Shown here piece by piece: positions 2,519 to 43,532 of a DNA stretch of 43,532 nt. Source of the DNA: a virus; the IMG/VR virus record IMGVR_UViG_3300009505_000022, positions 1 to 43,532 of that record, one strand, 5' to 3'. The position numbers and the translations under genes were made by a program. The stretch's first letter is position 1. The number at the start of each line of letters is the position of its first letter. The notes under the pieces were generated by a model. It saw nothing but the letters and a program-made list of their open reading frames with translations. It was not told the origin of the DNA and did not search any database.

Positions 2519-2537
2519 TACTTCAAAGATACTAATT

Positions 2538-3389: not shown

Positions 3390-3392
3390 AAT

Positions 3393-4100: not shown

Positions 4101-4101
4101 A

Positions 4102-4257
4102 TTAATTTTTTATCCCAAAATTTAATAATGTGAATATAAATTTCTTTTTTCCAAAATCAACGTTAAATTTAATAAAAGTTATTTTACCAATTCTAAGGAT
4201 AAAATCTAATTTATCATTTTGTTTTGCGTTTGATTTCCAACTGTTAGTGTATTTCAT
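4102..4257 (-). CDS. Small basic hypothetical protein, 51 aa
   Basis: An open frame of 51 residues (starts MKYTNSWKSNAKQND, ends LLNFGIKN) fills the gap between the two Cys-rich virion protein genes, starting 11 bases after the upstream stop. It is rich in Lys, Phe, Ile and Asn and has no recognised motif. Filling an otherwise empty interval inside a tightly packed operon, on the same strand, supports it being real. Its AT-rich codon content means chance remains possible. Confidence 0.45.
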   Translation of the reverse strand: MKYTNSWKSNAKQNDKLDFILRIGKITFIKFNVDFGKKKFIFTLLNFGIKN

Positions 4258-4268
4258 AGTTATTTAAT

Positions 4269-31149: not shown

Positions 31150-31372
31150 CTGTGTGCTGCGTTCCGTTGATTACCATCTTGTAGCCTGCCCTTGAGTCAT
31201 AGTATATCTCATCAGCAGTGTTTACCACACCCACATCTGTACCAGGCATCACAACCACACCCTTCTTATACCTCAAGTCTTTTGTGTCTTCAGCAGTTAA
31301 AAGTATTCCTGACTCTGTACTGATCTCTTCTTTGATTTCATCAATCACGATATATTTTCCTATTGGCTTCAT
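31115..31372 (-). CDS. groES: Co-chaperonin GroES (Cpn10)
   Basis: An 85-residue Cpn10. It has an N-terminal MKPIGKYIVIDEIK strand, a mobile loop EISTESGILLTAED equivalent to the GroEL-binding loop, a KKGVVVMPGTDVG turn and a VISESDVVVVL end. GroES caps GroEL rings. Its ATG overlaps the groEL stop as ATGA, so the two are coupled. The order is groEL then groES, opposite to the usual bacterial operon. It overlaps the 3' end of the plus-strand winged-helix gene. Confidence 0.85.
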   Translation of the reverse strand: MKPIGKYIVIDEIKEEISTESGILLTAEDTKDLRYKKGVVVMPGTDVGVVNTADEIYYDSRAGYKMVINGTQHTVISESDVVVVL

Positions 31373-32991
31373 TCGGTCTCGTATGTTCTAGCCATTGTGA
31401 TAATAGCATTGGTTGATAAAATAGTTACTGCAACAGACACTGCATTTTGAAGAGCTGATCTAGTTACCTTGGTAGGGTCAATGACACCCATCTCTATTAG
31501 GTCACCATATTCCTTAGTCTTTAAATCATACCCATAATCAAATCCACTAAGGTAGTGGTCTTTAAGAATATCGTCAGGTTCTAGTCCTGCGTTTATAAGT
31601 ATCTGTCTCCATGGAGCTTGCAGAGCATTGTACATAATATCTCTTGCTACCATAAGCTCCTTGGTTTCCTTTTTTTCATTTCTCTTGAAGTGAAAGGGTG
31701 CACATATTTTTGCTAGTGCCATTCCTGCTCCTGGAAGTATTCCCTCCTCTAAAGCTGAACGTACTGCACACACTGCATCGTCTACCCTGTCATATAACTC
31801 CTTCTGCTCAAGGTCTGTGTTACCTCCTACATGGATAACCCCTATCCCTCCTGTTAAGGAGGCGATTCGCTGCAGAATAAAATCCTTGTCCTGCTTTGCT
31901 TTGGTTACCTTATGTGCATCCCATAACTCAGCTACCCTTTGGTCCACATCCTTGTTTTGGTCAGCCTCACTTAAAATTACAGAAGAGTCTCTCCCAACTA
32001 TCACCCTGGAAGCAAACCCTAAGTCTGTAAATTCAATGAGGCTTAAATCGTCACCTGTCTTCTCCGAAAAATATGTAGCTCCTACCGACAACGCAATGTC
32101 CTGCATCAGCTCATGCTGACGATATCCAAAGTTTGGTGGTGGTACTGTACATAAGTGTAACCCCCTCTTCTGAACGTTGGCAGCCAAAGTGGCTATCACA
32201 TTCGTAGTACATGGTGATATAATTAATAATTTTTTCTTATCTTGTATGATTGGTTTCAACACATTCTCTATCTGAAGTATGTTACTGATCTCTGCATCAC
32301 ATACTAGTATATGCACATCATCCAATATACACTCGTCTTTCTTTTGGTGGTTGATAAACATCGGTGACGAATATCCCTTATCTATCTTAATACCCTTCGT
32401 GGTTTCATAAAAAGTATCTGGTGTCGGTGAGTTCTCTACAGTGACTATGCCGTTCTTGCCAACATCGTTGTAGCAGTCAGAGATTATCTTTCCTATAACC
32501 TTGTCGTTATTAGCTGATATAGTTGCCACATCAACTAACCTCTTCTTGGTAACCTTCTTACTTTCTTTCTTTAAAGACTTAACCAACCCTTCGGTCTCAC
32601 TTGCTAGATGTCTTAGAACTTCTGTCTTGTTTACATCACCAGTAATCTTTTGCAATCCCTGTTTGACTAACGCCTCTGTCAGCACAATAGCAGTGGTAGT
32701 CCCATCACCTGCTGAGGTAGCAGTTCTAGCTGACGCTTCTTTCATCATCTTTACGGCAAGATTACCTACAGGGTCTGCCATGTCATAACTCTTGGCAACA
32801 GTAACACCATCCTTGGTGACTGTCATTCCATGCGTGTGATGAGGTGATTCAATTATTACTGTTTGACCCATAGGTCCTAACGTGCTCTTAACTGCACTCG
32901 ATATCATAGAGATACCCTGAAGAAGTTTCTTTTGTGAGTCTACACCTATTGTAAGTTCTTTAGGTGAATACCCTCCCATTGGATTATTCAT
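31369..32991 (-). CDS. groEL: Chaperonin GroEL (Cpn60)
   Basis: A 540-residue Cpn60, close to normal length. Seen: SSAVKSTLGPMGQTVI (nucleotide-binding N-terminal part), GDGTTTAIVL (ATPase, about residues 95-104), VATISANNDKVIGKI, and the C-terminal VEEGILPGAGM-like region. It lacks the Gly-Gly-Met repeat tail. The start at 32991 was chosen over a TTG 66 bases upstream because it aligns with the family N-terminus and because a promoter lies in that extra stretch. The GroEL-GroES pair would fold phage proteins, probably capsid or tail proteins that do not fit host GroEL. Phage GroELs are known but uncommon. Confidence 0.9.
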   Translation of the reverse strand: MNNPMGGYSPKELTIGVDSQKKLLQGISMISSAVKSTLGPMGQTVIIESPHHTHGMTVTKDGVTVAKSYDMADPVGNLAVKMMKEASARTATSAGDGTTTAIVLTEALVKQGLQKITGDVNKTEVLRHLASETEGLVKSLKKESKKVTKKRLVDVATISANNDKVIGKIISDCYNDVGKNGIVTVENSPTPDTFYETTKGIKIDKGYSSPMFINHQKKDECILDDVHILVCDAEISNILQIENVLKPIIQDKKKLLIISPCTTNVIATLAANVQKRGLHLCTVPPPNFGYRQHELMQDIALSVGATYFSEKTGDDLSLIEFTDLGFASRVIVGRDSSVILSEADQNKDVDQRVAELWDAHKVTKAKQDKDFILQRIASLTGGIGVIHVGGNTDLEQKELYDRVDDAVCAVRSALEEGILPGAGMALAKICAPFHFKRNEKKETKELMVARDIMYNALQAPWRQILINAGLEPDDILKDHYLSGFDYGYDLKTKEYGDLIEMGVIDPTKVTRSALQNAVSVAVTILSTNAIITMARTYETE

Positions 32992-33017
32992 TTGATTTGA
33001 TTTAAATGTTATACATA

Positions 33018-33045
33018 CAAAGATACAATAATTATTCCATTTCAA
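33018..33045 (-). promoter_or_regulatory. Promoter of the groEL-groES operon
   Basis: On the minus strand TTG (33045-33043), 17 bases, then TATCTTTG (33025-33018), a full match to TTG-N17-23-TAnnTTTG. It lies about 27 bases upstream of the ATG at 32991 and inside what would otherwise be a spurious 5' extension of groEL. Confidence 0.65.
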
Positions 33046-33050
33046 AACTC

Positions 33051-33279
33051 GTGACAAGGTGACAAACTTTTTCCCCTATATATATATATATATTTTCCTC
33101 CTTTTATAAATACTACTCCCTATACAACCCTTTAAAACTGTCACAAACTATCACCACTCTAATAATCAAATAGTTAAGTATTTAAATTCGTCACAAAACT
33201 GTCATTTATTTGTCACAATAATATAGTAATCTTTATAATTCTGTCACAATAAAACAAAAAAAGAGGCAACTATAAAGTC
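33051..33279. repeat. Cluster of TTGTCAC / GTGACAA sites in the groEL upstream region
   Basis: Between the groEL promoter and the next gene there are four TGTCACA or CGTCACA copies at 33139, 33189, 33211 and 33242, a partial CTGTCAT at 33199, a GTCAC at 33277, and two inverted GTGACAA copies at 33051 and 33059. An alternating TA stretch lies at about 33078-33093. These behave like operator half-sites or iterons, and none is inside a gene. The regulator is unknown. Confidence 0.5.
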
Positions 33280-33304
33280 ACCCCTTAAAACAAAACAGTA
33301 AATT

Positions 33305-33496
33305 TTACTTTAAAAATTTTGCAATTGCTTGTTTCATTTGTTTTCTGTCATCAGCAAGTTCAATACCCAATGCAATATCTTGAGTTATACTTCTTTGCTT
33401 GTTAGCCTTGCGTAACATAGAAGCTTGTGATATACCAGAAATACCTACAGGGCGATCATTAATCAATCTCCCATCTTTCATTGTTAATCCATCCAT
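33305..33496 (-). CDS. Hypothetical protein, 63 aa
   Basis: A 63-residue protein (MDGLTMKDGRLINDRPVGIS start; then RKANKQRSITQDIALGIELA, ending AIAKFLK). It has a basic helical C-terminal half. A TACCTTTG box lies 32 bases upstream. It appears to be the first gene of the minus-strand block after the 33.5-34.1 kb interval. No function recognised. Confidence 0.5.
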   Translation of the reverse strand: MDGLTMKDGRLINDRPVGISGISQASMLRKANKQRSITQDIALGIELADDRKQMKQAIAKFLK

Positions 33497-33527
33497 GGTT
33501 CTTAATTTTTAAATTATACGTATATCC

Positions 33528-33535
33528 CAAAGGTA
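33528..33535 (-). promoter_or_regulatory. -7 box before the 63-aa gene
   Basis: On the minus strand TACCTTTG, an exact TAnnTTTG match. It stands 32 bases before the ATG at 33496. A TTG lies immediately adjacent rather than at the usual distance, so the match is partial. Confidence 0.4.
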
Positions 33536-33539
33536 CAAA

Positions 33540-34069
33540 ATTTTATTAGATAGGTGCAGTGTTTGGGTTATATGATATGATGAAGACGCACCCCCCCAGA
33601 GAAAACCGATTTTTTTTGCTCGACATTTCACGTTTTTTTTTCGTTGTTTCTGATTTTTTTAGCTTTTAGTTTAGGTAGGATCAGCCCTTACCACCACTAC
33701 GATTGTCGTAGGTTTTACCCTTGCATCAATCTGCGTGGAACTCCCAATCTAATGAAGGGGAACTACCTCCACATCCATAGGAACAGATACAAAAGAGAAC
33801 TAAATAACTTTAAACTCTTAAAGTATTGAGATGATTAGAGACATCTCATAACCTCTGTCCCTTCATCATATTGCCTAAACATTTAGAGATAATCAGCATC
33901 TCGCAATCCCTTTGTTAGTCTATGTTCAGACAAGTCAAGAACAAAAGACAATCACTCGAATGAAAATAACACAGATATTAGACAGATATTAGACGAATAT
34001 TCACTATATTGTCGTGGGAATAGTCCCATAACACGAGTAAAAACATAAATACTTGAAAATCACAGAATT
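33540..34069. other. Intergenic divergent control region with several hairpins and tandem repeats
   Basis: About 530 bases without a convincing gene between the leftward late block and the rightward early block. It holds a C7 run at about 33591, T-rich tracts, a perfect hairpin CTACGA-TTG-TCGTAG at 33697-33711, two related hairpins GAGATG...CATCTC (33828-33847) and GAGAT...ATCTC (33886-33902), an 11-base tandem repeat CAGATATTAGA twice at 33972-33993 followed by a weaker third copy, and a bulged hairpin TCGTGGGA/TCCC..CACGA at 34012-34036. A short 25-codon frame at 33752-33829 exists but lacks support. It may contain the early promoter, an ncRNA or the origin; none can be proved. Confidence 0.5.
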
Positions 34070-34246
34070 ATGAAGAAAAACAAGATTACAAAAGAGTTCA
34101 AGGCTTGGTTAAAAAGCGACAATGTCATTGAACTATCGAAAGATGGAGTATCATTTTGGGCAAGTCAAGATGCTCAATACCGAAACAAGTTGTACACTAG
34201 GCAAGATGCTTGGAACTACTATCAGAAAGAATTTATTAATCAGTAA
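34070..34246 (+). CDS. Hypothetical early protein, 58 aa
   Basis: A 58-residue protein (MKKNKITKEFKAWLKSDNVI start, ends AWNYYQKEFINQ), basic and helical. It is the first gene of the rightward early block. The preceding bases, AATCACAGAATT, are a variant of the leader seen before later genes in the block. No function recognised. Confidence 0.6.
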   Translation: MKKNKITKEFKAWLKSDNVIELSKDGVSFWASQDAQYRNKLYTRQDAWNYYQKEFINQ

Positions 34247-34259
34247 ACCAATTAGAACT

Positions 34260-34433
34260 ATGAACAGAATACTCAAACACATTGTATTGCCGAGTGGATT
34301 ACACGCAATACAGACAAGGCAAGATGGTAGTGATATCATCAGAACAGAAATCTTCACTGAAGAGGAATACCAACACTTTACGTGGTGGAACAGAACTAAA
34401 TTTAAACTTAACCTTTTAACCTTAAACAACTAG
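34260..34433 (+). CDS. Hypothetical early protein, 57 aa
   Basis: A 57-residue protein (MNRILKHIVLPSGLHAIQTR start; ends KFKLNLLTLNN). The start at 34260 was chosen over an upstream ATG at 34122 because the leader ACCAATTAGAACT lies directly before it and because the upstream part overlaps the previous gene. The C-terminal LNN comes from the leader of the next gene. Unknown function. Confidence 0.6.
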   Translation: MNRILKHIVLPSGLHAIQTRQDGSDIIRTEIFTEEEYQHFTWWNRTKFKLNLLTLNN

Positions 34434-34437
34434 AATT

Positions 34438-34701
34438 ATGAGAAACATTTATAACATTTACGGCTATGACCTAAAGAACGGATTTTGCTTTGAGAACATT
34501 GACTTTTCAAGCAAGAAAACTGCACTAGATTCACTTGCATACATCCGAGAACATTGGATGAAAAAGTTAGACTTATCTTCAGCAAATGTGCTGAACATCG
34601 GAACTACAGAAGATGAACAATTTGTAGTGGAGATTGACAATAGGGTAAGACTTACTCTTACGAAGAAACCAATTTATACACAAGTAGTAAAATACGTTTA
34701 A
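34438..34701 (+). CDS. Hypothetical early protein, 87 aa
   Basis: An 87-residue protein (MRNIYNIYGYDLKNGFCFEN start) with alternating hydrophobic pattern (FSSKKTALDSLAYIREHWMK), of mixed alpha-beta character. Preceded by AACAACTAGAATT. Ends 20 bases before the leader of the next gene. Unknown function. Confidence 0.6.
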   Translation: MRNIYNIYGYDLKNGFCFENIDFSSKKTALDSLAYIREHWMKKLDLSSANVLNIGTTEDEQFVVEIDNRVRLTLTKKPIYTQVVKYV

Positions 34702-34721
34702 CCATTAAAACAATTAGAATT

Positions 34722-35294
34722 ATGAAGACAATTAAGCAATCAGTATTTAGAGAATTATCGAATAAATTTAGTGGCAATGAGTTCACTAGAAAAGACATCC
34801 AAAAAGCCGTTTGGAATGCTCAAGGATTTAACGCAGATGAGTTTACCTACAGACAAGGGTACTACGGCATCAACATCAAGAGTTGGAACGACTATGAACG
34901 TCTAATTGAAAGGCAATCAAGAGGTCGCTACAAGTTGACTAAAGTCGGCAAGAAGTTCGCTACTTGCAGTTATGAAGATGGAGTTGCTTTGATACGTGAG
35001 AACAACAAAAAACTACTTGCAGAACGTCAAGCTAAAAGAGAGGCAAACAGATTCGCCTTACCACCTCATATACTCCACGCAGACAAGTTCCAACATTTGA
35101 GTGGACTGACCATCACTAGAGTTCGTTATATGACTCCTAAAGAGGTGGAGCATTTAGGTTGGTACAAGAGTTCCATAGTCTTTGAAATGAGTGATGGAAG
35201 TTTATTGTTTCCACAGATGGATGATGAAGGAAATGATGGTGGAGCAATGTCACATATTACTGAACAAGGGATGGATACAATCTACACGATTTAG
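34722..35294 (+). CDS. Predicted DNA-binding protein with conserved phage C-terminal domain, 190 aa
   Basis: A 190-residue protein. The N-terminal 80 residues look like a winged helix (FTRKDIQKAVWNAQGFNADE, then SRGRYKLTKVGKKFATCSYE). The C-terminal part (about 115-185) carries LTITRVRYMTPKEVEHLGWY and a MSDGSLLFPQMDDEGNDGGA end, a segment I know as a widespread conserved phage module of unknown function (MT-x-x-E ... GW ... DDEGNxxG). A leader motif precedes the start. Confidence 0.6.
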   Translation: MKTIKQSVFRELSNKFSGNEFTRKDIQKAVWNAQGFNADEFTYRQGYYGINIKSWNDYERLIERQSRGRYKLTKVGKKFATCSYEDGVALIRENNKKLLAERQAKREANRFALPPHILHADKFQHLSGLTITRVRYMTPKEVEHLGWYKSSIVFEMSDGSLLFPQMDDEGNDGGAMSHITEQGMDTIYTI

Positions 35295-35304
35295 TCCTTC
35301 AAAA

Positions 35305-35378
35305 CACCAATTTCCAGTATTCGCCTCACTATGAAAATAGTGGGGTTTTGGTGGTGAAAGCAATGAAGTTTTCACTTA
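35305..35378 (+). ncRNA. Structured RNA element, copy 1 (GAAA-loop hairpin + TTTTGGTGGT + second hairpin)
   Basis: Stem A, CCTCACTAT/ATAGTGGGG (35324-35345), nine pairs with a GAAA tetraloop, followed by TTTTGGTGGT (35346-35355) and stem B, GTGAAA/TTTCAC (about 35355-35376), then the leader motif of the next gene. In copy 1 an upstream CACCAA (35305-35310) can pair with TTGGTG inside the linker. The same arrangement recurs at 36610-36660 with different stem sequences. Confidence 0.6.
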
Positions 35379-35393
35379 AAAACAATTAGAAAA

Positions 35394-35621
35394 ATGAGTA
35401 AAAATTTAAACAACGACCAACGGATCAAACGAGGTCACAAAGACGTAAAAGGTCTTGGAACACTAGCATCAACTATCCTAGTAATTGAGTTGCAACAACT
35501 CATCGAGCAGAGGGTAAAAGAGGTGCAAAAAATCAAGAGTGGAACACGAGTAAATCCATTCGTATCAAACCAAGCCGTAGTGCAAGTATTAGAAACATTT
35601 ATTAACCCAATTAACAATTAG
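35394..35621 (+). CDS. Hypothetical early protein, 75 aa
   Basis: A 75-residue protein (MSKNLNNDQRIKRGHKDVKG start) with a helical core (ASTILVIELQQLIEQRVKEV). It is preceded by the structured RNA element and by the leader AACAATTAGAAAA, so its expression may be regulated by that RNA. Ends in PINN, from the next leader. Unknown function. Confidence 0.6.
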   Translation: MSKNLNNDQRIKRGHKDVKGLGTLASTILVIELQQLIEQRVKEVQKIKSGTRVNPFVSNQAVVQVLETFINPINN

Positions 35622-35625
35622 AATT

Positions 35626-36021
35626 ATGACTACAGAACAAATTTTAGAACAACTACACGACAAAACGATTCACGCAATCCAAGTTGAACTGCTTGAGATT
35701 CTTCAAGCCAATGACCTTGCAAATAATGACAAGGCATTAAACGAAACCGACTACGAGTTTATGAATATGCTACTAACAAAGTTCTTCAACAAAACACACT
35801 ATCAGAAGGCTTACTATCTTTTTGGAGATGGTGCAGTTCAGATATTTGATGATGAAGGAGTAGATGCCTTAATTGAGGCTTACGAAGACAACGAAGTTGG
35901 ATACCTTACTTATTGCTTTGACCAAAGCAAAGATACACCTACAGACCTCTTGTATGAGGCTCAAGGGATGAACGACTTTTCCGTAATAACTGAAGAAGAA
36001 TATAATAAATTAAATCAATAG
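35626..36021 (+). CDS. Hypothetical acidic early protein, 131 aa
   Basis: A 131-residue, strongly acidic protein (MTTEQILEQLHDKTIHAIQV start; then YLFGDGAVQIFDDEGVDALI). Helical N-terminus. Acidic early proteins can mimic DNA or sequester host factors; this is only a thought. Preceded by AACAATTAGAATT. No family recognised. Confidence 0.6.
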   Translation: MTTEQILEQLHDKTIHAIQVELLEILQANDLANNDKALNETDYEFMNMLLTKFFNKTHYQKAYYLFGDGAVQIFDDEGVDALIEAYEDNEVGYLTYCFDQSKDTPTDLLYEAQGMNDFSVITEEEYNKLNQ

Positions 36022-36026
36022 AAATT

Positions 36027-36335
36027 ATGACCACAAAAATCAAATTAAGAAGTGGATTTCCACAAGGATATCTACCACAAGGAATTACCTACAAGAACTA
36101 CACAATGCTTGTAGCAATCGCTAACTATTCTGACAACGGCTCTTGTTGTGGAACGGCTCACACTCTCATCGAAGAGGTTGCATCCATAGAACGCAAGGAG
36201 CAACTTGTAGATGGGTTAGGAGGCTTTATGACTGCAATTTGCAGAGGCACGTTTACAGAGGCTTGGAAAAGAGCAGACCACTCTAATCGCAAGGCACTAA
36301 TCGAGGGACTAACTAATAACGAGATAGAGCTATGA
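36027..36335 (+). CDS. Hypothetical early protein with Cys pair, 102 aa
   Basis: A 102-residue protein (MTTKIKLRSGFPQGYLPQGI start). It contains a DNGSCCGTAHT segment and a basic helix (RADHSNRKALIEGL). Preceded by a variant leader AATCAATAGAAATT and overlapped by the next gene (ATGA). Unknown function. Confidence 0.55.
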   Translation: MTTKIKLRSGFPQGYLPQGITYKNYTMLVAIANYSDNGSCCGTAHTLIEEVASIERKEQLVDGLGGFMTAICRGTFTEAWKRADHSNRKALIEGLTNNEIEL

Positions 36336-36583
36336 TACAGACATATAGAGAGTTTATAGATGCTGACACACGAGCAGAGGGTCTTACGATACCATTTCGT
36401 GATGTTTATGCGATACTTGAAACCAAGTGGAGTGACGTAGAAGAACATTGTTTTAGGCTACGAGGCAATGAGAGGTGCAGTTACGAGGATAGGCTTGAAC
36501 ACACACTTGAACTATTAAGTAAAGACAAGTGGCTATTGTACCTTGACAAGTATGGTAACATTTATAGTGGAGTAATAATGTAG
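36332..36583 (+). CDS. Hypothetical early protein, 83 aa
   Basis: An 83-residue protein (MIQTYREFIDADTRAEGLTI start), with a mixed fold and aromatic C-terminus (YLDKYGNIYSGVIM). Its ATG overlaps the previous TGA, so it is translated by coupling and has no own leader motif. Unknown function. Confidence 0.55.
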   Translation: MIQTYREFIDADTRAEGLTIPFRDVYAILETKWSDVEEHCFRLRGNERCSYEDRLEHTLELLSKDKWLLYLDKYGNIYSGVIM

Positions 36584-36609
36584 AATAACAACCTCAACCT
36601 CATCAAATG

Positions 36610-36660
36610 CCTTGCACAGAAATGTGCGAGGTTTTGGTGGTACAAGGCGATATTGCCTTG
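36610..36660 (+). ncRNA. Structured RNA element, copy 2
   Basis: Stem A, CCTTGCACA/TGTGCGAGG (36610-36631), nine pairs with a GAAA tetraloop and one T-G wobble; then TTTTGGTGGT (36632-36641); then stem B, CAAGGC/GCCTTG (36643-36660). Same order as at 35305-35378 while both stems have changed on both arms, which is compensatory support for real structure. GCCTTG also occurs in the 5' arm of stem A, so stem B's 5' arm could swap partners. A leader motif and a gene start follow. Confidence 0.65.
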
Positions 36661-36680
36661 CATTTAAAACAATTAGAACG

Positions 36681-36857
36681 ATGGCAAAAGCAATCACAGA
36701 TTACACCTTAGATGGTAATGGAACGCTGACAACATTTGTCGGTAAAGAAGTACACAATGTTATGTATAATGTAGATACCTTTTTTGAGGCTCAGATGCAT
36801 ATCAGCGAACAGAACAACGAACTATTTAACAAACATTTATTAACCTTAAACAATTAG
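36681..36857 (+). CDS. Hypothetical early protein, 58 aa
   Basis: A 58-residue protein (MAKAITDYTLDGNGTLTTFV start; ends LNN). The start at 36681 was chosen because AACAATTAGAACG directly precedes it; an upstream ATG at 36612 would run through the structured RNA. Unknown function. Confidence 0.55.
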   Translation: MAKAITDYTLDGNGTLTTFVGKEVHNVMYNVDTFFEAQMHISEQNNELFNKHLLTLNN

Positions 36858-36861
36858 AATT

Positions 36862-37200
36862 ATGAAGAATTATTATCGAGAATTACGACACAATCCACCA
36901 ACACTAGAGGTGGTAAAAAATCCAAAGAGAGTGACACTAAAAATGGTTGCGTGTATGTGCGACAATCGTTCAGAAATCAAGTTTATAAAGACAGAAGATT
37001 TTTGGAGGGTATGGTCAGTTCTTCCGAGTGGAATGGGCAACGCAATGAGCAACTATCAGTTCGGTTGTGGTGCAACTGGAGGTGGCTTTAAAGCTAGTGC
37101 TGACGACCTATGTTGGATGGCTCTAGAAGGCGATTGGGATGGAATCCTAAAGACCATTAATAGTGGAACTGCCGTAATAGAAAAAGTAAGAAGTTTATAA
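36862..37200 (+). CDS. Hypothetical early protein with Cys-rich loop, 112 aa
   Basis: A 112-residue protein (MKNYYRELRHNPPTLEVVKN start) with a Gly/Asn loop (SGMGNAMSNYQFGCGATGG) and aromatic residues. Preceded by AACAATTAGAATT. Unknown function. Confidence 0.55.
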   Translation: MKNYYRELRHNPPTLEVVKNPKRVTLKMVACMCDNRSEIKFIKTEDFWRVWSVLPSGMGNAMSNYQFGCGATGGGFKASADDLCWMALEGDWDGILKTINSGTAVIEKVRSL

Positions 37201-37220
37201 CCATTAAAACAATTAGAAAA

Positions 37221-37463
37221 ATGAAGACACAAAATTTAACATATGTCAATGAAGAAAATGAACAAGTAGGTTTGTTTCTTCTCAATACTCTAGAAGGTAA
37301 AAAAATATGGAGTATGAGCCAAACAAGTGATGAATTAGAATCTCTAGTTAGGAAATACCACAGAAAGAATGGTATTACTAATTGGAAATTTGCAGACAAC
37401 TATGACGAAGGTATAGATTGGGTTTGCTTTGGAGATTTATTTAACAATTTAAAAAACAATTAG
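37221..37463 (+). CDS. Hypothetical early protein, 80 aa
   Basis: An 80-residue protein (MKTQNLTYVNEENEQVGLFL start; ends LKNN, from the next leader). A mixed alpha-beta pattern. Preceded by AACAATTAGAAAA. Unknown function. Confidence 0.55.
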   Translation: MKTQNLTYVNEENEQVGLFLLNTLEGKKIWSMSQTSDELESLVRKYHRKNGITNWKFADNYDEGIDWVCFGDLFNNLKNN

Positions 37464-37467
37464 AAAG

Positions 37468-37821
37468 ATGAAACAGATTATTAGAAAAAATGACATCCAA
37501 TCAAGATTGGAATCAAGAGAATGTACAATAGTAGAAGTAAACCACATATGGCATCAGCCATCAGACCGATGGATATACATCGAGAAACACGAAGATAATT
37601 GGATTGGCTTAAACTTTATGCAAGGCGATGAGTACGAACTATTCAAGGAAGAATACTGCATTGAAGATAGGGCATTAAGTACGTTCTTTGATGAGATGAA
37701 AAATGATGAACTACCTTTTGATCTTCAACTCGAAAAAGATGGAGATGTGGAATACATCGATAAAATCATATGGATATTTTATAAAGCAAAGGCAAGTATA
37801 CTTAACTTTTCAAGCCTATGA
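37468..37821 (+). CDS. Hypothetical early protein, 117 aa
   Basis: A 117-residue protein (MKQIIRKNDIQSRLESRECT start), acidic with several Trp (NHIWHQPSDRWIYIEKHEDN). Preceded by AACAATTAGAAAG and overlapped by the next gene (ATGA). Unknown function. Confidence 0.55.
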   Translation: MKQIIRKNDIQSRLESRECTIVEVNHIWHQPSDRWIYIEKHEDNWIGLNFMQGDEYELFKEEYCIEDRALSTFFDEMKNDELPFDLQLEKDGDVEYIDKIIWIFYKAKASILNFSSL

Positions 37822-37967
37822 AAGCTACCTTAAAATTTAGAACAGAGAGAGCAAACGATTGGTACGTTACCAAAGAGTTTGCTGACGAGAAACATATGGA
37901 TAATTTCATCAACTACATCTGTAGGACAAAGTTTGGATACTCTTTAGATGAGGTCTTTCTAGACTAA
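37818..37967 (+). CDS. Small early protein, 49 aa
   Basis: A 49-residue protein (MKATLKFRTERANDWYVTKE start; ends YSLDEVFLD). Its ATG overlaps the TGA of the preceding gene as ATGA, which supports it being translated. Unknown function. The structured RNA begins 5 bases after its stop. Confidence 0.5.
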   Translation: MKATLKFRTERANDWYVTKEFADEKHMDNFINYICRTKFGYSLDEVFLD

Positions 37968-37972
37968 AAAAA

Positions 37973-38017
37973 GTGGGATGCGTAGACGCACTTGTATGGA
38001 GCAAAACCATATCCCAC
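37973..38017 (+). ncRNA. Three-way-junction-like structured RNA
   Basis: Outer stem GTGGGAT/ATCCCAC (37973-37979 with 38011-38017) encloses two hairpins, GCGT/ACGC and ATGG/CCAT (loop AGCAAAA). It follows the stop of the 49-aa gene. The sequence to 38065 has a GGA-TAAAG-TCC hairpin and a CCC/GGG pair. No T run follows, so it is not a normal terminator. It is too small for a tRNA. Family unknown. Confidence 0.55.
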
Positions 38018-38065
38018 ATCTAACTAGGATAAAGTCCCTTCCGACTAAAATGGGCGATTTAAATT

Positions 38066-38374
38066 ATGGAAAGCAATAAACTTATTGCAGAATTTATGGG
38101 GCTTGATTCATTCAAGGATTCATTAGCCTCACTACATCAAGGAAAGATAAACGTAGATGTAGATGTGTATGAACAAGCACAATACCACACCTCTTGGGAT
38201 TGGCTTATGCCAGTAGTTCAAAAGATAGAAAGTTTGGGGTACGTATTCACTATACAAGGAGGTAAGGCAGAATATAATGAAATGATAAGTAAACCTAAAA
38301 TCTTTATAGCAAAAGACAAAATGTCGTCTACGTATAAAGCAGTAGTTAAATTTATTAATCAATTAAACAATTAG
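38066..38374 (+). CDS. Phage ABA-sandwich-type protein, 102 aa (copy 1)
   Basis: A 102-residue protein with NKLIAEFMG at the start, YHTSWDWLMPVVQKIE in the middle and YKAVVKFINQLNN at the end. This order is what I recall of the phage ABA sandwich domain, found in Bacteroidota phages with unknown role. A second copy follows at 38507 with long stretches of identical DNA, so one arose by duplication. The leader is short and lacks the usual motif. Confidence 0.65.
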   Translation: MESNKLIAEFMGLDSFKDSLASLHQGKINVDVDVYEQAQYHTSWDWLMPVVQKIESLGYVFTIQGGKAEYNEMISKPKIFIAKDKMSSTYKAVVKFINQLNN

Positions 38375-38379
38375 AAATT

Positions 38380-38502
38380 ATGAGTAAAAAAGAATTAATT
38401 AAAAAAATTGAATGGATTATAGAAGGTTTGGAAGTAGGAGATAATATTTTCAAAGTAGTCCAAGATATAGATAAATTAATAAAAGAAGAGAAAAACCAAT
38501 AA
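38380..38502 (+). CDS. Small early protein, 40 aa
   Basis: A 40-residue Lys/Glu/Ile-rich helix (MSKKELIKKIEWIIEGLEVG start; ends IKEEKNQ). It lies between the two ABA-sandwich copies and has the full leader AACAATTAGAAATT before its start, which makes translation likely. Coiled-coil-like. Function unknown. Confidence 0.55.
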   Translation: MSKKELIKKIEWIIEGLEVGDNIFKVVQDIDKLIKEEKNQ

Positions 38503-38506
38503 GATT

Positions 38507-38863
38507 ATGAACACACAAGAAAACAATAAACTTATTGCAGAATTTATGGGTGGTATACCATCAAGTGTACCAAATTTAATTAACCTACCACAAACAATAG
38601 GGGAATCAAGAATCCTTTGCGTAAAAGGAAGTGAGGGTTTACCAAGTGGTACTTATGCCGTTAAAAGAATTAATGATTTAAAATATCATTTCTCTTGGGA
38701 TTGGCTTATGCCAGTAGTTGAGCAATGTTTAATAGGCGAAGCCGAAGTAAGCGAAGAAATCTCTAAAACTACAATTACAAACATATACGAGGGTATTTGT
38801 AGTCAAGATATATCAGCTACTTATAAATCAGTAGTTAAATTTATTAATCAATTAAACAATTAG
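38507..38863 (+). CDS. Phage ABA-sandwich-type protein, 118 aa (copy 2)
   Basis: A 118-residue paralogue of the gene at 38066: NKLIAEFMG at the start, YHFSWDWLMPVVEQ in the middle, YKSVVKFINQLNN at the end. Between them it has a longer Gly/Pro insertion (LPQTIGESRILCVKGSEGLP). The ends are almost identical in DNA to copy 1, the middle differs, so selection or recombination has changed the variable part. Leader variant AACCAATAAGATT. Confidence 0.65.
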   Translation: MNTQENNKLIAEFMGGIPSSVPNLINLPQTIGESRILCVKGSEGLPSGTYAVKRINDLKYHFSWDWLMPVVEQCLIGEAEVSEEISKTTITNIYEGICSQDISATYKSVVKFINQLNN

Positions 38864-38868
38864 AAATT

Positions 38869-39177
38869 ATGAGTGAAATGGAACAAGAAAAAATCGTAAG
38901 CCTCAATGCAGACAAAGCTATTCGTAGAGCATTGGACATCCAAGAGGCTAAAGACCTTCTAAAGAGAGAAGGATTCTGTGTGGACAACCTTTGGCATATA
39001 GACGATATACAACAAAATTATCATTGTGAAGATGATGAGGCAATGGAAGTGTTAGAAATAGTTTGTGCAAATGACTATATAGTAAGTCAAACGTTTGATG
39101 CTATAGATATGTATATTGAGTGCAATACAGAACAAGGAGAGTTTAAACCAAAAACCAACTCAAGACATGGAGAATAA
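38869..39177 (+). CDS. Hypothetical acidic early protein, 102 aa
   Basis: A 102-residue protein (MSEMEQEKIVSLNADKAIRR start) with a helical acidic body (DDIQQNYHCEDDEAMEVLEI). It overlaps the next methyltransferase-like gene by 11 bases. Leader AACAATTAGAAATT. Unknown function. Confidence 0.55.
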   Translation: MSEMEQEKIVSLNADKAIRRALDIQEAKDLLKREGFCVDNLWHIDDIQQNYHCEDDEAMEVLEIVCANDYIVSQTFDAIDMYIECNTEQGEFKPKTNSRHGE

Positions 39178-39820
39178 ACTATTAGAATTATTCGCAGGTT
39201 CTAGAAGTGTTGGCAAAGAGGCAGAGAAGTTAGGATACGAAGTATTTTCGTCTGACATCAATGAGTTCGATGGGATTGATTACGCAGTTGACATCAACAA
39301 TTTTGATGTATCAAGAGTGCCATTCATCCCATCAGTCATATGGGCATCTCCACCTTGTACATATTTCTCTGTTGCTAGTATTGGCAAACATTGGAATAAA
39401 GACCACACACCGAAGTCAGAGAACGCACTTAAAGGTGTGGAGTATGTTCAGTCTACCTTGAATATAATTGAACACTTTAAAAGGCTTAATCCAAGCCTAA
39501 AGTTTTTTATAGAGAATCCTAGAGGAAAGCTACGCAAATTAAGTGTGGTCCAGGCGTTGCCAAGAACAACGATATGGTACTGCACCTATGGAGATTCTAG
39601 GGCAAAACCCACAGACATTTGGAGCAACTTTATCTACGGATTGGATAATCCAAACGGATGGATTCCAAGAGCAGAATGTCACAATGGTAACAAGAATTGC
39701 CATCACGAGTCTGCACCGAGAGGAAGTCAAAGTGGAACTCAAGGTCGGAAGGGTAACTACGAAAGGTCGAAGATACCATCAGAACTATGCAAGGAAGTAA
39801 TGTTAAAATGTAAACTATGA
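39167..39820 (+). CDS. Atypical cytosine-C5 DNA methyltransferase-like protein
   Basis: A 217-residue protein (MENKLLELFAGSRSVGKEAE start). Motif I LELFAGSRSVG binds AdoMet; motif IV reads SPPCTYFSVA with the catalytic Cys (the usual form is PPCQxFS); motif VI is IENPRG (usual ENV). Sequence between 150 and 210 may form a small target-recognition part. The start at 39167 gives the expected N-terminus; an earlier one at 39116 adds residues overlapping the previous gene. It may protect phage DNA from host enzymes. The partner gene follows with ATGA overlap. Confidence 0.7.
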   Translation: MENKLLELFAGSRSVGKEAEKLGYEVFSSDINEFDGIDYAVDINNFDVSRVPFIPSVIWASPPCTYFSVASIGKHWNKDHTPKSENALKGVEYVQSTLNIIEHFKRLNPSLKFFIENPRGKLRKLSVVQALPRTTIWYCTYGDSRAKPTDIWSNFIYGLDNPNGWIPRAECHNGNKNCHHESAPRGSQSGTQGRKGNYERSKIPSELCKEVMLKCKL

Positions 39821-40458
39821 AGATACTAGTAGGATGTGAGGAATCACAAGCCGTAACCATAGAGTTACGCAAGTTAGGTCACGAGGCATTCAGTTGCGAT
39901 GTGATGGAGAGTAGTGGAGGATATCCACAATGGCACATACAAGGCGATTTATTAAAGGAGTTGCACAAGGGTTGGGATATGCTTATTGCATTCCCACCTT
40001 GCACTCATTTAGCCGTTAGTGGTGCTAGACATTTTGAGCAGAAGATTAAGGATGGTAGGCAACAACAAGGTATAGACTTTTTTATGGAGATGATTAACGC
40101 ACCCATAGATAAGATATGCGTAGAAAATCCTATTGGAATTATGAGTACAAAGTACCGAAAGCCTAGCCAAATAATCCAACCTTATATGTTTGGGGACAAG
40201 GCTCAAAAAAGCACTTGTTTATGGTTAAAAAACCTACCTCTACTTGTTCCAACGAATATTGTAGAAAAAGGCGAGTTCATAGAATTCGTTAGTAAAAAGG
40301 GAGTCAAGAAAAGGCAACCGAAGTGGTACTTTGATGCACTAAAGAATTCAAAAAATGCATCGGAGAGATCAAAGCTACGAAGTAAAACGTTCAAGGGAAT
40401 AGCCAAAGCTATGGCTACCCAATTTACAATTATTAACCAAAAACAATTAGAATTATGA
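39817..40458 (+). CDS. Second methyltransferase-like protein with PPCT and ENP motifs
   Basis: A 213-residue protein (MKILVGCEESQAVTIELRKL start). It has an AFPPCTHLAVSGARHF loop matching motif IV and a CVENPIGIMSTKY segment matching motif VI, but motif I is degenerate (ILVGCEESQAV). It ends in a basic helix. This is a common phage family annotated as DNA cytosine methyltransferase-like; the activity is uncertain. The overlapping ATGA with the preceding MTase suggests that both act together, perhaps as subunits or with different targets. Confidence 0.6.
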   Translation: MKILVGCEESQAVTIELRKLGHEAFSCDVMESSGGYPQWHIQGDLLKELHKGWDMLIAFPPCTHLAVSGARHFEQKIKDGRQQQGIDFFMEMINAPIDKICVENPIGIMSTKYRKPSQIIQPYMFGDKAQKSTCLWLKNLPLLVPTNIVEKGEFIEFVSKKGVKKRQPKWYFDALKNSKNASERSKLRSKTFKGIAKAMATQFTIINQKQLEL

Positions 40459-40661
40459 CAATCGAAAAATTATTAAGTGAGCCAATAGTATTTGTTTACT
40501 CGGAAACGGATGACGCATCAGCGACATACGAATTTAATTACGAAGAAGTAAAACAAGTTATTGAGGCACACAATGAAGATTTTGACACGAACTACAAAAC
40601 CATCGCAGAATTTAATGATGGCGAAGAATATAGAAAAATAAATATTAACCTACCATTTTAA
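40455..40661 (+). CDS. Hypothetical acidic early protein, 68 aa
   Basis: A 68-residue acidic protein (MTIEKLLSEPIVFVYSETDD start) with a mixed alpha-beta pattern. Preceded by AACAATTAGAATT, which overlaps the end of the MTase-like gene. Unknown function. Confidence 0.55.
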   Translation: MTIEKLLSEPIVFVYSETDDASATYEFNYEEVKQVIEAHNEDFDTNYKTIAEFNDGEEYRKININLPF

Positions 40662-40673
40662 ACAATTAGAATT

Positions 40674-40967
40674 ATGAAAGTAAAAATTGAAACAAGACAA
40701 GTGTATCACAAGTATGCACAAGTAGAAATAGAAGTATGCGAAGATGAATTCGACCACTTTAAATTAGATAATGGAAAGTGGACAACACTCCAAGACTATT
40801 TAATATCCCATGAAGACTTGTATACCGACAAGATTGACCAAGCTATATCTAAAGCAAAGTATGAATGTGGTAATGGTATAGAGGAACACGATGGAATGAA
40901 TGAGCCAGAATCAAACTCAGAGTGGAGATATGAGTGTGATAAATTGCACGATGGAGGACATCTGTAG
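40674..40967 (+). CDS. Hypothetical acidic early protein, 97 aa
   Basis: A 97-residue protein (MKVKIETRQVYHKYAQVEIE start) with a beta-rich N-terminus and a charged helix. Last gene before the terminator. Leader AACAATTAGAATT. Unknown function. Confidence 0.55.
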   Translation: MKVKIETRQVYHKYAQVEIEVCEDEFDHFKLDNGKWTTLQDYLISHEDLYTDKIDQAISKAKYECGNGIEEHDGMNEPESNSEWRYECDKLHDGGHL

Positions 40968-40993
40968 CTAATCAAAACAATTTATTATTATTT

Positions 40994-41024
40994 AAGCCTA
41001 TGCAATTATGTGTAGGCTTTTTTT
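40994..41024 (+). terminator. Rho-independent terminator of the early operon
   Basis: A ten-pair hairpin AGCCTATGCA / TGTGTAGGCT with loop ATTA, followed by TTTTTTT. It closes the first early transcript 27 bases after the last gene, and separates it from the DnaA-like and recombination genes. Confidence 0.9.
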
Positions 41025-41050
41025 GTATAGTTAAAAAAGTTGAGTCACTT

Positions 41051-41076
41051 TTAGGGAGTCCCTAAAAAATCCCTAA
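41051..41076 (+). promoter_or_regulatory. Operator candidate: perfect palindrome TTAGGGA-G-TCCCTAA plus a third half-site
   Basis: TTAGGGAGTCCCTAA (41051-41065) is a perfect 7+1+7 palindrome, followed after four bases by a third TCCCTAA (41070-41076). It stands about 65 bases before the -7 box at 41141, between the terminator and the next transcript. It looks like a repressor or activator site; the protein is unknown. Confidence 0.55.
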
Positions 41077-41140
41077 CGTGTATTTGTTGCAAAGCACAGA
41101 ATAGGTGTGTAGTTTTCTAGTTTTTGTGCAATAAGTTTCT

Positions 41141-41148
41141 TATATTTG
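41141..41148 (+). promoter_or_regulatory. -7 box of the second early transcript
   Basis: TATATTTG fits TAnnTTTG and belongs to CTTATATTTGTCTAA (41139-41153), found again exactly at 41839. It lies 18 bases before the ATG at 41167. A TTG is present 14 bases upstream, shorter than the usual spacing. Confidence 0.5.
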
Positions 41149-41166
41149 TCTAAATTAAATCAAATT

Positions 41167-41319
41167 ATGAAGACAATGAAACTTACTGTCCACCTATATT
41201 ATGGTGGAGCACACCCATCAGAAACTAAACACACCAATGATATAGATCAGGCTAGGAGATGGGTAGCCGATGCCGAACATGGCGAGATTATTAACTCTCA
41301 AAACATATCAGTAGAATGA
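41167..41319 (+). CDS. Small hypothetical protein, 50 aa
   Basis: A 50-residue protein (MKTMKLTVHLYYGGAHPSET start; ends IINSQNISVE). Its TGA overlaps the ATG of the DnaA-like gene as ATGA, so it is translated with it. First gene of the second early transcript. Function unknown. Confidence 0.55.
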   Translation: MKTMKLTVHLYYGGAHPSETKHTNDIDQARRWVADAEHGEIINSQNISVE

Positions 41320-41618
41320 AGTACACATTATTTAACAAGTTAGCCACAGAAGTATCGGTGGCATTCGGAATGGAAGAAAAATATTTATTTCAAAAAAATA
41401 AAAAAGCATCAATAGTAGACGCAAGATATTTATTATACTACCTATGTTTAGAAAACAAAATACAACTCACAAACATTCAAAAGTATATGGAGAACAGAGG
41501 ATACCAAATACCTCACTCCACTATACACTACGGAATAAAAAGAGTTAATGAAAAGGTTTCTGAAGATAGAGATTATCAAATTGTTATAGATAGAATAAAT
41601 ACTTTATGTACAATTTAG
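41316..41618 (+). CDS. DnaA domain IV-like DNA-binding protein
   Basis: A 100-residue protein. Residues about 28-95 match the pattern of DnaA domain IV (helix-turn-helix that binds DnaA boxes): ASIVDARYLLYYLC, then LTNIQKYMENRGYQIPHSTI and HYGIKRVNEKVSEDRDYQ. There is no AAA+ ATPase domain. It could bind host or phage DnaA-box-like sequences in replication initiation, or serve as a regulator. Flanked by overlapping genes. Confidence 0.65.
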   Translation: MKYTLFNKLATEVSVAFGMEEKYLFQKNKKASIVDARYLLYYLCLENKIQLTNIQKYMENRGYQIPHSTIHYGIKRVNEKVSEDRDYQIVIDRINTLCTI

Positions 41619-41998
41619 GTGAATTATTCTACCAAGCTGAAAAAGATTATCATTCAAAACCATTGCATGACAAAGTAGTTAATTCTTATATGTGTTATGG
41701 ATTTAAAATTATAAAAGAATTAAATTCAAACCAGGTATCCATCGTAGATATGACAAAAGGTGGAGACTACTACCAAGAAATAAATATTGACGAGTATAGT
41801 TATTTTAAAACTTTAGGTTGGAAAAGAGCAATATATGTCTTATATTTGTCTAATTGTCGTACAAAGCTTTCACGATTGGAAACAAGAATACAGAATGCTT
41901 TGGTTAATAATGTTAGTATAAAGACAATCAGAAAACTTAAAGCTAGTAGAGAACAAATCTTACGAAACTTTAATAAAGTAAAAATCAAGTTAAATTAA
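41606..41998 (+). CDS. Hypothetical protein, 130 aa
   Basis: A 130-residue protein (MYNLGELFYQAEKDYHSKPL start). Mostly helical C-terminus rich in Lys/Arg (KTIRKLKASREQILRNFNKV). It overlaps the end of the DnaA-like gene by 13 bases. Contains an internal promoter-like site (41818-41848). Unknown function. Confidence 0.55.
   Translation: MYNLGELFYQAEKDYHSKPLHDKVVNSYMCYGFKIIKELNSNQVSIVDMTKGGDYYQEINIDEYSYFKTLGWKRAIYVLYLSNCRTKLSRLETRIQNALVNNVSIKTIRKLKASREQILRNFNKVKIKLN
41818..41848 (+). promoter_or_regulatory. Internal promoter-like sequence upstream of the recombination genes
   Basis: TTG (41818-41820), 20 bases, then TATATTTG (41841-41848): a full match to TTG-N17-23-TAnnTTTG within the 130-aa gene. 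It includes the same CTTATATTTGTCTAA as 41139-41153. It would drive the annealing protein and exonuclease genes, 164 bases downstream. Confidence 0.45.
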
Positions 41999-42011
41999 AT
42001 TAAATACAATT

Positions 42012-42704
42012 ATGAAAGAAACAGAAAAATCAGTTTTTGAAACTCTGTCGGCTATCAATGTCAATGACAAGGTCGAGCAGAAAAATGGATTAACTTATCT
42101 CTCTTGGGCATGGGCATGGGCAGAGGTAAAGAAGAACTACCCTAGTGCAACGTACAAGGTAGTAAAAGACGAGGCTACCAATTTACCTTTTGTTTACGAT
42201 GTGCATATGGGTTATATGTGTAGCACAGAGGTTACCATCAAGGGCGAAACATTGGAAATGTGGTTGCCAGTTATGGATGGAGCAAACAAGGCTATGAAGT
42301 TAGAGGCATACGAGTACACCACAAGGTATGGAAAGAAGTCTGTAAAGGGTGCTACAATGTTTGACATCAACAAGACTATTATGAGATGTCTTGTGAAGAA
42401 CTTAGCTATGTTTGGGTTAGGTCATTACATCTATGCTGGTGAAGACTTACCACAAGATGACAAGAGTGTAGCCGAGAAGTTAGCTACTCCAAAAAAGGCA
42501 GAGCCTAAAAAGACTGCACCAAAAAAATCAGAGCCTAAAAAGACTACTATAATTAAGCTAGATATTGGTGATGATAATTGGGATAAGGTCTTGAATTATG
42601 TCATAGCCAATAAAGAGTTAGGATTAAAGAAGATCGGTGAGAACTTACTTACTAAGTATAGTATGACTGCAAAGGTTAAAAAAGAAATTGCTAAATCCTT
42701 ATAA
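42012..42704 (+). CDS. Single-strand annealing protein, Sak3/DUF1071-like
   Basis: A 230-residue protein. Residues about 24-46 (NGLTYLSWAWAWAEVKKNYP) and 120-145 (TIMRCLVKNLAMFGLGHYIY followed by AGEDLP) fit the DUF1071 (Sak3) annealing family, which pairs complementary single strands in phage recombination. Residues 155-180 form a Lys/Pro-rich linker (KKAEPKKTAPKKSEPKK), then a C-terminal helical part. It is coupled with the exonuclease next to it, the usual SSAP-exonuclease pair. Confidence 0.75.
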   Translation: MKETEKSVFETLSAINVNDKVEQKNGLTYLSWAWAWAEVKKNYPSATYKVVKDEATNLPFVYDVHMGYMCSTEVTIKGETLEMWLPVMDGANKAMKLEAYEYTTRYGKKSVKGATMFDINKTIMRCLVKNLAMFGLGHYIYAGEDLPQDDKSVAEKLATPKKAEPKKTAPKKSEPKKTTIIKLDIGDDNWDKVLNYVIANKELGLKKIGENLLTKYSMTAKVKKEIAKSL

Positions 42705-42707
42705 GCT

Positions 42708-43448
42708 ATGTCAGACACAATAATAAAACAACTTAAAGACGATAAGGAATATTACGGAGGGATAGGTAGGAACTATCTCTCCAATAGTGATATTGGAGCA
42801 TTACTTTCAAACCCAAAAGAATTTGGGATACAGAAAGATGACAATATAAATTTTGCAAAAGGAAGACTGTTTCATCATTTAATTTTAGAGCCAGAGAAAG
42901 TTCAAAATTGGAGTGCAGTTGATGTGTCTAGCAGAAACACAAAGAAGTACAAAGAAATAATAGCTGAGTCTAATGAGCCATTTCTTTTGTTACAGAAAGA
43001 GTTTGACGAGATTACAGAACTCTCAAAAGTAATGACATCAAACCTAGATTTCTACGATATGATATATGCTGATGGTAATCAGTTTGAAGTGCCTTCAATT
43101 GGAGAGATTGGAGGAGTAATGTGGAAAGGTAAAGCAGATATAGTTTGTGATGACTGCTTGATTGATATAAAAACTACAAGTGACATAAATAAATTCATTT
43201 ATAGTGCATCAAACTACAACTACGATAGCCAAGCATACGTATACCATACATTGTTTGGTAAGCCACTTAAATTCCTAGTAATAGACAAGAGTAATGGTCA
43301 GCTAGGAGTCTTTGAAACAACGGCAGACTTTATTGAAAAAGGTGCAGTAAAAGTTCAGAAAGCAATTCAGGTATACAATAAGTTTTTTCATGACGTAAAG
43401 GCTACGGATGATATAAACCAATACTATCGTCATGTGGAGCTTTTTTAA
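42708..43448 (+). CDS. PD-(D/E)XK exonuclease, RecE/DUF3799-like
   Basis: A 246-residue protein. The nuclease core is WKGKADIVCDDCLIDIKTTS (about residues 139-158), with Asp, Asp and Lys of the PD-(D/E)XK signature, followed by a YDSQAYVYH helix that fits the QxxxY motif. Such exonucleases resect double-stranded ends and hand the strand to the annealing protein. It starts three bases after the SSAP stop, forming the recombination module. Confidence 0.75.
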   Translation: MSDTIIKQLKDDKEYYGGIGRNYLSNSDIGALLSNPKEFGIQKDDNINFAKGRLFHHLILEPEKVQNWSAVDVSSRNTKKYKEIIAESNEPFLLLQKEFDEITELSKVMTSNLDFYDMIYADGNQFEVPSIGEIGGVMWKGKADIVCDDCLIDIKTTSDINKFIYSASNYNYDSQAYVYHTLFGKPLKFLVIDKSNGQLGVFETTADFIEKGAVKVQKAIQVYNKFFHDVKATDDINQYYRHVELF

Positions 43449-43473
43449 AAAACTAAAAAAATCTTCTAACATT

Positions 43474-43532
43474 ATGTACTTACAAGTTCCAAAAGTATGT
43501 AAGACCAGGAGGGATAAGAACTTACTTATCGA
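43474..43532 (+). CDS. Partial ORF at the right edge
   Basis: An open frame from ATG 43474 (MYLQVPKVCKTRRDKNLLI) continues to the window edge. It follows the exonuclease by 25 bases on the same strand, so it is probably the next gene of the module. Too short to identify. Confidence 0.35.
   Translation, partial: MYLQVPKVCKTRRDKNLLI

Follow-up and report, generated by a model that had tools for sequence, protein, structure and literature searches.

A covarying hairpin with a conserved tail between phage genes, a probable signal for dividing or controlling viral mRNA

Introduction

Why would a virus place a hairpin with the same cap and the same flanking decamer, yet different stem sequences, ahead of two of its small genes? 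The question arises from an IMG/VR virus record of 43,532 nt, the whole of which is called the window in the following. Judged by a structural protein, its closest annotated relatives are Caudoviricetes sp. MW202828, Maribacter phage Panino and the Flavobacterium elemo phages, and its genes include groEL, Cpn10, one with a crAss-type muzzle domain and one for a Sak annealing protein. Both hairpins are on the plus strand within a run of small plus strand genes, in which 17 of the 23 gaps listed measure between -4 and 20 nt. According to an earlier sequence-only reading of this DNA, no long gaps exist in the segment besides the two that contain the hairpins, which overlooks 37968-38065 (98 nt) and 40968-41166. 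A search of the window for tRNAs and tmRNA found none.

To our knowledge, mRNA control in Bacteroidota phages has been little explored. A repeat that can be found with a covariance model would help to resolve how operons are built in uncultivated phages, and would in addition offer a small RNA substrate for testing host RNases and proteins. The comparisons described below indicate that the element is a real, so far uncatalogued RNA signal, which probably divides or controls viral mRNA.

Architecture of the two copies

In each unit a stem P2 is enclosed by an outer stem P1, whose 5' arm comes directly behind the upstream stop codon, and a hairpin P3, a leader and the ATG of the next gene follow (Table 1). 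The sequence-only reading had located P2 correctly as a nine-pair stem capped by GAAA, starting at 35324 and at 36610, and was also right about the layout, with P2 leading in both copies into the identical TTTTGGTGGT, P3, leader and ATG. It took the conserved decamer for a spacer, however, whereas most of the decamer is one strand of P1. As the upstream arm of P1 in the second copy lies at 36601-36607, this copy begins slightly upstream of its P2. The folding energy of each of four stretches lies below that of all 200 dinucleotide shuffles (z -3.8 to -5.5), and with model R2, which contains both copies, P2 scores 54.4 bits in copy 1 and 54.3 bits in copy 2. A third exact TTTTGGTGGT, at 32342, falls within groEL and reads antisense to it; R2 does not report it even at an E-value of 10.

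Table 1. Positions of the parts of both copies and of the genes that follow them in the window
Feature	Position	Strand	Remarks
Copy 1, P1 5' arm CACCAA	35305-35310	+	Pairs in the MFE fold with TTGGTG 35348-35353; P1 supported across copies
Copy 1, P2 nine-pair GAAA hairpin	35324-35345	+	Arms CCTCACTAT 35324-35332 and ATAGTGGGG 35337-35345
Copy 1, decamer TTTTGGTGGT	35346-35355	+	
Copy 1, conserved tail TTTTGGTGGTG, with P1 3' arm inside	35346-35356	+	Tail profile NTTTNGTGGTA
Copy 1, P3 hairpin	35354-35375	+	From fold
Copy 1, AT-rich leader TTAAAAACAATTAGAAAA preceding ATG	35376-35393	+	TTAAAACAATTAGAA enriched in window
Gene after copy 1, 75 aa	35394-35621	+	Weak PHROGs match only (E 0.07); kept in L120-L123
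Copy 2, P1 5' arm CATCAAA	36601-36607	+	Pairs with TTTGGTG 36633-36639
Copy 2, P2 nine-pair GAAA hairpin	36610-36631	+	Arms CCTTGCACA 36610-36618 and TGTGCGAGG 36623-36631
Copy 2, decamer TTTTGGTGGT	36632-36641	+	
Copy 2, conserved tail TTTTGGTGGTA, with P1 3' arm inside	36632-36642	+	TTTTGGTGGT repeat; tail profile
Copy 2, P3 hairpin	36643-36660	+	From fold
Copy 2, AT-rich leader CATTTAAAACAATTAGAACG	36661-36680	+	
Gene after copy 2, 58 aa	36681-36857	+	Without PHROGs family

The leader word TTAAAACAATTAGAA has 28 matches with up to three mismatches in the whole window against 11.0 expected, and it recurs ahead of the start codons of many plus strand genes from 34243 to 40671.

Further copies in other phages

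Viral contigs were scanned with a pattern in which nine unspecified bases separate GAAA from the decamer, and with a second pattern, and each scan returned at least 119 stretches; among the matches listed, 13 distinct cores, the two of the window included, have 8 or 9 of 9 pairs flanking GAAA. Two scans in which P2 was fixed and the tail left free returned 48 and 25 stretches. The tail is present in all but four of the 49 distinct cores listed from these tail-free scans (L350, which came from another scan, included), the exceptions being L414 and L419, which lack it, and L396 and L402, which are doubtful. From 35 non-redundant tails, none of them constrained by the search, the consensus NTTTNGTGGTA was derived, and the exact decamer occurs in 14 of the 35. 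Loops other than GAAA occur, namely TAATC, GAAATA and GAGA, and the core of copy 2 is found unchanged in three other phages (L039, L244, L281).

Could such a combination arise by chance? On loci collected largely by motif patterns, a perfect P2 followed by a tail with at most one mismatch to TTTTGGTGGTA gave 50 distinct matches and each of four control tails gave none, on which grounds a chance origin was rejected. With two mismatches the numbers were 21 against 5-6 for the controls, and with three mismatches 45 against 17-43. Of these 116 matches 73 were kept by eye (50 of 50, 14 of 21 and 9 of 45 at up to one, two and three mismatches, respectively), and this selection by hand biases the position and pairing statistics given below towards recognised copies; the dropped row L173 may be a genuine copy. 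The 73 were reduced to 44 non-redundant copies, mostly from viral contigs and among the matches listed, which form the basis of the structural analysis.

Covariation and the RNA strand

Since only rows with a fully paired P2 were admitted, they are paired to 100% by construction, and it is the variety of pair types that constitutes the evidence. Across the 44 copies both sides change at six of the nine pairs, a number that shuffles reach in 58 of 500 cases. More discriminating are the cells with a two-sided change, 102 of 396 as compared to 20.4 in shuffles, and the covariation score, 0.79 as compared to 0.26, neither of which was attained in any of 500 shuffles. The earlier proposal of a selected RNA structure is supported by the covarying P2 pairs of 44 copies, and what it had named as supporting evidence, more covarying copies outside this phage, came from the pattern scans.

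In 43 of 44 copies the fold of the plus strand is better than that of the complementary strand. Moreover, G-U pairs occur in P2 of 42 of the 44 copies, with exactly one in 30 and none in two. The G-U pairs together with the strand preference point to an RNA rather than a DNA palindrome. A site acting at the DNA level, for example a repressor operator, was considered and is disfavoured by the covariation and the G-U pairs. The L17 downstream element (RF01708) was oriented with the help of G-U pairs and GNRA loops (PMC2864571), and it resembles the present element in being a hairpin-type candidate RNA located after a gene, albeit in different hosts. Within the otherwise covarying hairpin certain bases are conserved, these being UUU and GUGGUA of the tail, and the base of P2 is G-rich and usually holds a U-G pair.

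For P1 the upstream arm of each copy was compared to arms taken from other copies. The own arm stabilises P1 by -9.08 kcal/mol, swapped arms by -7.44 kcal/mol (sd 0.25) and shuffled arms by -5.53 kcal/mol (sd 0.37), with 0 of 200 trials reaching the observed value in either control. The same holds when the comparison is restricted to the 25 copies whose tails deviate (-8.20 versus -6.17 kcal/mol, sd 0.41, for swapped arms; 0 of 200) and for the helix score (12.91 versus 11.51 for swapped arms; 0 of 200). Clear cases of altered arms that still pair are TACCTAT/ATAGGTA (L386), CCTAG/CTAGG (L384) and CCTCAA/TTGAGG (L326). Simply counting the copies that have four or more P1 pairs reveals no excess, with 42 of 44 versus 39.4 for swapped and 40.3 for shuffled arms. 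In MFE folds of the 44 copies P1 and P2 together form one irregular hairpin with a median of 17.5 bp and a range of 9-22 bp, as compared to the roughly 20 bp plus internal loop expected of a T7-type RNase III site. P3 is optional: only 22 of the 44 copies have a hairpin of -3 kcal/mol or better in the 30 bases around and after the end of the tail, and its stems include GGCA-TGCC, GACA-TGTC and GAGGA-TCCTC. The pairing is shown by these comparisons; what the element does we infer.

Position and gene context

P2 follows the upstream stop codon at a median distance of 21 nt (interquartile range 20-25, n=71), and the next ATG follows the tail at a median of 34 nt (n=61), the distance being 12-22 nt in 15 of the 61. 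An ORF starting with ATG on the same strand, of at least 30 aa or cut by the contig end, begins within 130 nt downstream of 72 of the 73 copies, the exception being one copy in L094, and a same-strand ORF ends within 200 nt upstream of 71 of them. Placement between co-directional genes, as expected for sites of the T7 type, is what was found.

In 33 whole records, which were chosen for carrying the motif and include some near relatives, each contains 1-4 R2 matches (E ≤0.001, a few of them weak) and 24 contain at least two. Within a record the matches share a strand, G053 with an additional weak match being the sole exception. Four matches lie within 1.5 kb in G020, and the three of them that were inspected precede a start codon. 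When 50 phages were picked by Sak alone, four had a match (E ≤0.001), of which a single one is strong and belongs to L142, a member of the model, indicating that the motif is sporadic.

Which genes surround the element? Seven of 45 large proteins of motif loci match groEL, and by mutual identity they represent seven different loci. A gene for a major head protein directly precedes the motif in L271, L038, L215 and L261; the gene before the motif in L401 and L287 gave no match to a major head protein. Most of the 61 distinct proteins encoded downstream belong to no family, some being related to each other, and the families found are three DNA methyltransferases (PHROGs) and one DUF932 protein (Pfam). 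The gene at 36332-36583, located between the preceding stop codon and copy 2, is missing in L122 and L125, and in L122 the copy 2 element is kept with nearly unchanged spacing. In L126, whose Sak is 92% identical, most of the early block is absent from the 20.7 kb examined, and the record has no R2 match at 0.001. A small gene at 33305-33496, beside groEL (31369-33057), has relatives with 44-57% identity among motif phages (L350, L383, L384, L223, L210, L382, L406, L232 and L416); L133 also has a relative, at 55%, and no motif was found in its record.

Distribution and catalogues

Is the element confined to phages? A pattern search of genome_contigs gave 34 matches, of which one, L350 (G102:C687), combines the full stem with the tail. 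It lies on a phage-like contig with a groEL relative within a MAG titled Aliivibrio. This MAG contains four R2 matches on three contigs (L350, L437 and L438), which probably stem from phages and were assigned to the wrong host during binning. L341, from a Bacteroidaceae MAG, has 8 of 9 pairs. Among 299 genomes of the family to which L337, a Flavobacterium contig, belongs, 15 have matches at 1e-5 under stricter filters. The ten best host matches, which were inspected, resemble terminators or hairpins of some other sort; tail-like GGT words occur in five (L427-L429, L433 and L436), and host scores of 28-37 bits overlap with the weak end of the phage scores, which run from 17 to 59 bits. An element of bacterial chromosomes is disfavoured, as the lone full-stem match in genome_contigs is on a phage-like contig.

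Comparison of the two copies with cultured phages by blastn yielded nothing convincing, the match to Vibrio phage HNL01 being 22 nt long, and for MW202828, Panino and elemoF the best E-values were 0.008 (R1, whole records) and 0.025 (R2, stretches). A comparison with Rfam, which had been suggested along with the original observation, was carried out with release 15 at gathering thresholds and gave no match to any family in the window or in 14 other motif loci; at a relaxed threshold 35280-36720 gave a single chance-level match, elsewhere and on the other strand. In the literature searched no description of the motif was found. HMP_4078, a candidate RNA of Bacteroidetes that is linked to phages, is mentioned in one publication (PMC8040213). 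Hairpins between phage cistrons are as such a known kind of element; a family with a second covarying stem and a conserved tail appears to be new.

Function of the element

How might a hairpin in an intergenic gap act? A precedent is T7 early RNA with its processing sites R0.3, R0.5, R1, R1.1 and R1.3. RNase III cuts this RNA at five sites (PMC4858673), and R1.1 is located between genes 1.0 and 1.1 and contains a 4/5 internal loop (PMC6121014). Common to both systems are repeated, similar hairpins in the intergenic gaps of one transcript. In our own folds of the T7 record five of six early junctions contain a stem of 9-13 bp, which is followed by TTTATGAT in three of them and by an ATG about 28-37 nt further on in four. 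The likeness is partial, as the 0.6-0.7 junction has no stem and the 1-1.1 hairpin is much farther from the ATG. Moreover, T7 sites are devoid of the NTTTNGTGGTA tail, and the best R2 match in T7 700-6700 has an E-value of 0.19 and is on the opposite strand, so that sequence homology was not found; judged by sequence, the element is not a T7 site by descent.

Because place, shape and spacing resemble the T7 early junctions, the reading favoured here, by analogy and with a likelihood a little short of even, is that of an intercistronic hairpin for RNA processing or insulation that would work like the T7 RNase III sites. Briefly, it would act in cis between two genes of one transcript, and a double-strand-specific RNase, be it host RNase III, a phage-modified form or a dedicated enzyme, would cut in or beside the P1/P2 junction, on the 3' side, which is rich in U. 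A hairpin would then remain at the 3' end of the upstream message and protect it, and the downstream gene would gain its own 5' end some 30-45 nt ahead of the AUG. The spacing from the stop codon would keep P2 and most of P1 clear of the terminating ribosome. UUU and GUGGUA of the tail and the base of P2 could be recognised by the RNase or a helper protein. RNase III is not known to require much sequence, and the conservation of tail and P2 base beyond such needs makes it likely that a sequence-reading protein is involved, whatever the model. If processing holds true, other phages would have arrived at the T7 strategy of dividing a long transcript into shorter messages by way of another sequence, whose conserved bases imply that something reads it. 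It should be noted that many copies, in a range that starts at 9 bp, are shorter than two full helical turns and that P2 with UUUU resembles host intrinsic terminators, both of which count against processing. It could further be imagined, though we regard it as rather doubtful, that different Bacteroidota phages share an RNA code, namely a two-stem hairpin with conserved tail bases at an almost constant distance behind stop codons of early and capsid operons. A single protein of host or phage origin, be it an RNA-binding protein or an RNase that recognises sequence, would read this code and cut or mark the mRNA gene by gene.

Alternatively, the resemblance to terminators could be taken at face value. 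P2 and the U-run would then constitute an attenuator or partial intrinsic terminator that releases some RNA polymerase after the upstream gene, with read-through tuned by P1 or its upstream arm, by a ribosome on the stop codon or by a phage factor. Bacteroidota intrinsic terminators likewise have a GC-rich hairpin, sometimes with a GAAA loop, followed by T's; P2 followed by TTTT has this shape, several of the ten best host matches of R2 look like plain terminators (e.g. AAAAACCC..GGGTTTTT), the element follows the major head gene in one group of phages and its fixed distance from the stop would be in keeping with a device coupled to the ribosome. However, most of these ten host matches have A-tracts and T-runs without P1, tail positions 5-8 carry on average 2.9 G/C, which should stabilise the hybrid, fewer than four of the first five tail bases are T in 12 of 44 copies, and the tail of L438, CATTGGTGGT, has no U-run at all. 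A terminator scan of 33000-43532, requiring at least five T in eight after a GC stem, called 40994 (+) and 33286 (-) and neither element. Furthermore, elements in series would multiply the losses, and the 15 of 61 short distances to the start leave no room for a new promoter. Such partial release is conceivable, if well short of probable. Somewhat less likely still is an operator at which an RNA-binding protein of phage or host would regulate how the downstream gene is translated or how stable its message is, with one protein serving an RNA regulon. It would account for the conserved bases in a covarying hairpin, including the G-rich P2 base with its usual G-U pair, and for several copies per phage before mostly unrelated genes, but the position is set as tightly by the upstream stop as by the downstream start, and no RNA-binding family was found among 41 window proteins (Pfam, E 0.001) or ten (PHROGs).

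PeSLs, of which Arbiol in 2010 and Comeau in 2014 reportedly gave accounts, are promoter-plus-stem-loop cassettes of T4-type phages, and they invite the idea of a recombination cassette at gene junctions that is kept for gene swapping. Here too repeated stem-loops stand in gaps between small variable genes, and one of them is a place of gene gain or loss, as seen in L122 with its nearly kept spacing. The reduced early block of L126 and the identical copy 2 cores in three other phages also speak for a cassette. This idea we consider very unlikely, as a joint of DNA homology needs neither covariation nor G-U pairs nor strand preference, and such shuffling may be a by-product of an RNA role rather than a rival to it. 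In contrast to PeSLs, the element has a weak U-run and a second covarying stem, and TAnnTTTG, which occurs in five places from 33000 on (including 41141), is found at neither copy; a promoter of this type at the elements was rejected for the lack of the motif, and sigma-70-like matches are near chance (44 vs 38.3 expected). The sequence-only reading had seen a switch or attenuator in the duplicated arm GCCTTG of copy 2, which occurs at 36609-36614 and 36655-36660 and can pair with CAAGGC from either place. Such a switch is scarcely credible, since it is impossible in copy 1, and L039, L244 and L281 share the P2 arm and have a P3 without CAAGGC; outside copy 2 and the orthologues of that copy the pairing is not conserved. 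Mutually exclusive pairing as in riboswitches was not found for the one alternative examined, that of GCCTTG. The put RNA of HK022 and the nut RNA of lambda suppress termination downstream of an early promoter, and up to four element matches in a short stretch fit poorly with such antitermination.

Other signals in the same segment

The gap 37968-38065 folds into a structure resembling a three-way junction, with GTGGGAT..ATCCCAC enclosing two short hairpins (z -1.5 for the whole gap). It has no Rfam match, and a strict pattern of it occurs in four viral contigs. It is nearly unchanged in L121-L126, the motif-less L126 included, though the following gene differs. The gap 40968-41166 contains a textbook terminator with a stem at 40994-41019 followed by T's, and the ATG of the next gene is at 41167. 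Between the two lie TTTTTG (41121) and TATATTTG (41141), which fit the consensus of a Bacteroidetes-type promoter.
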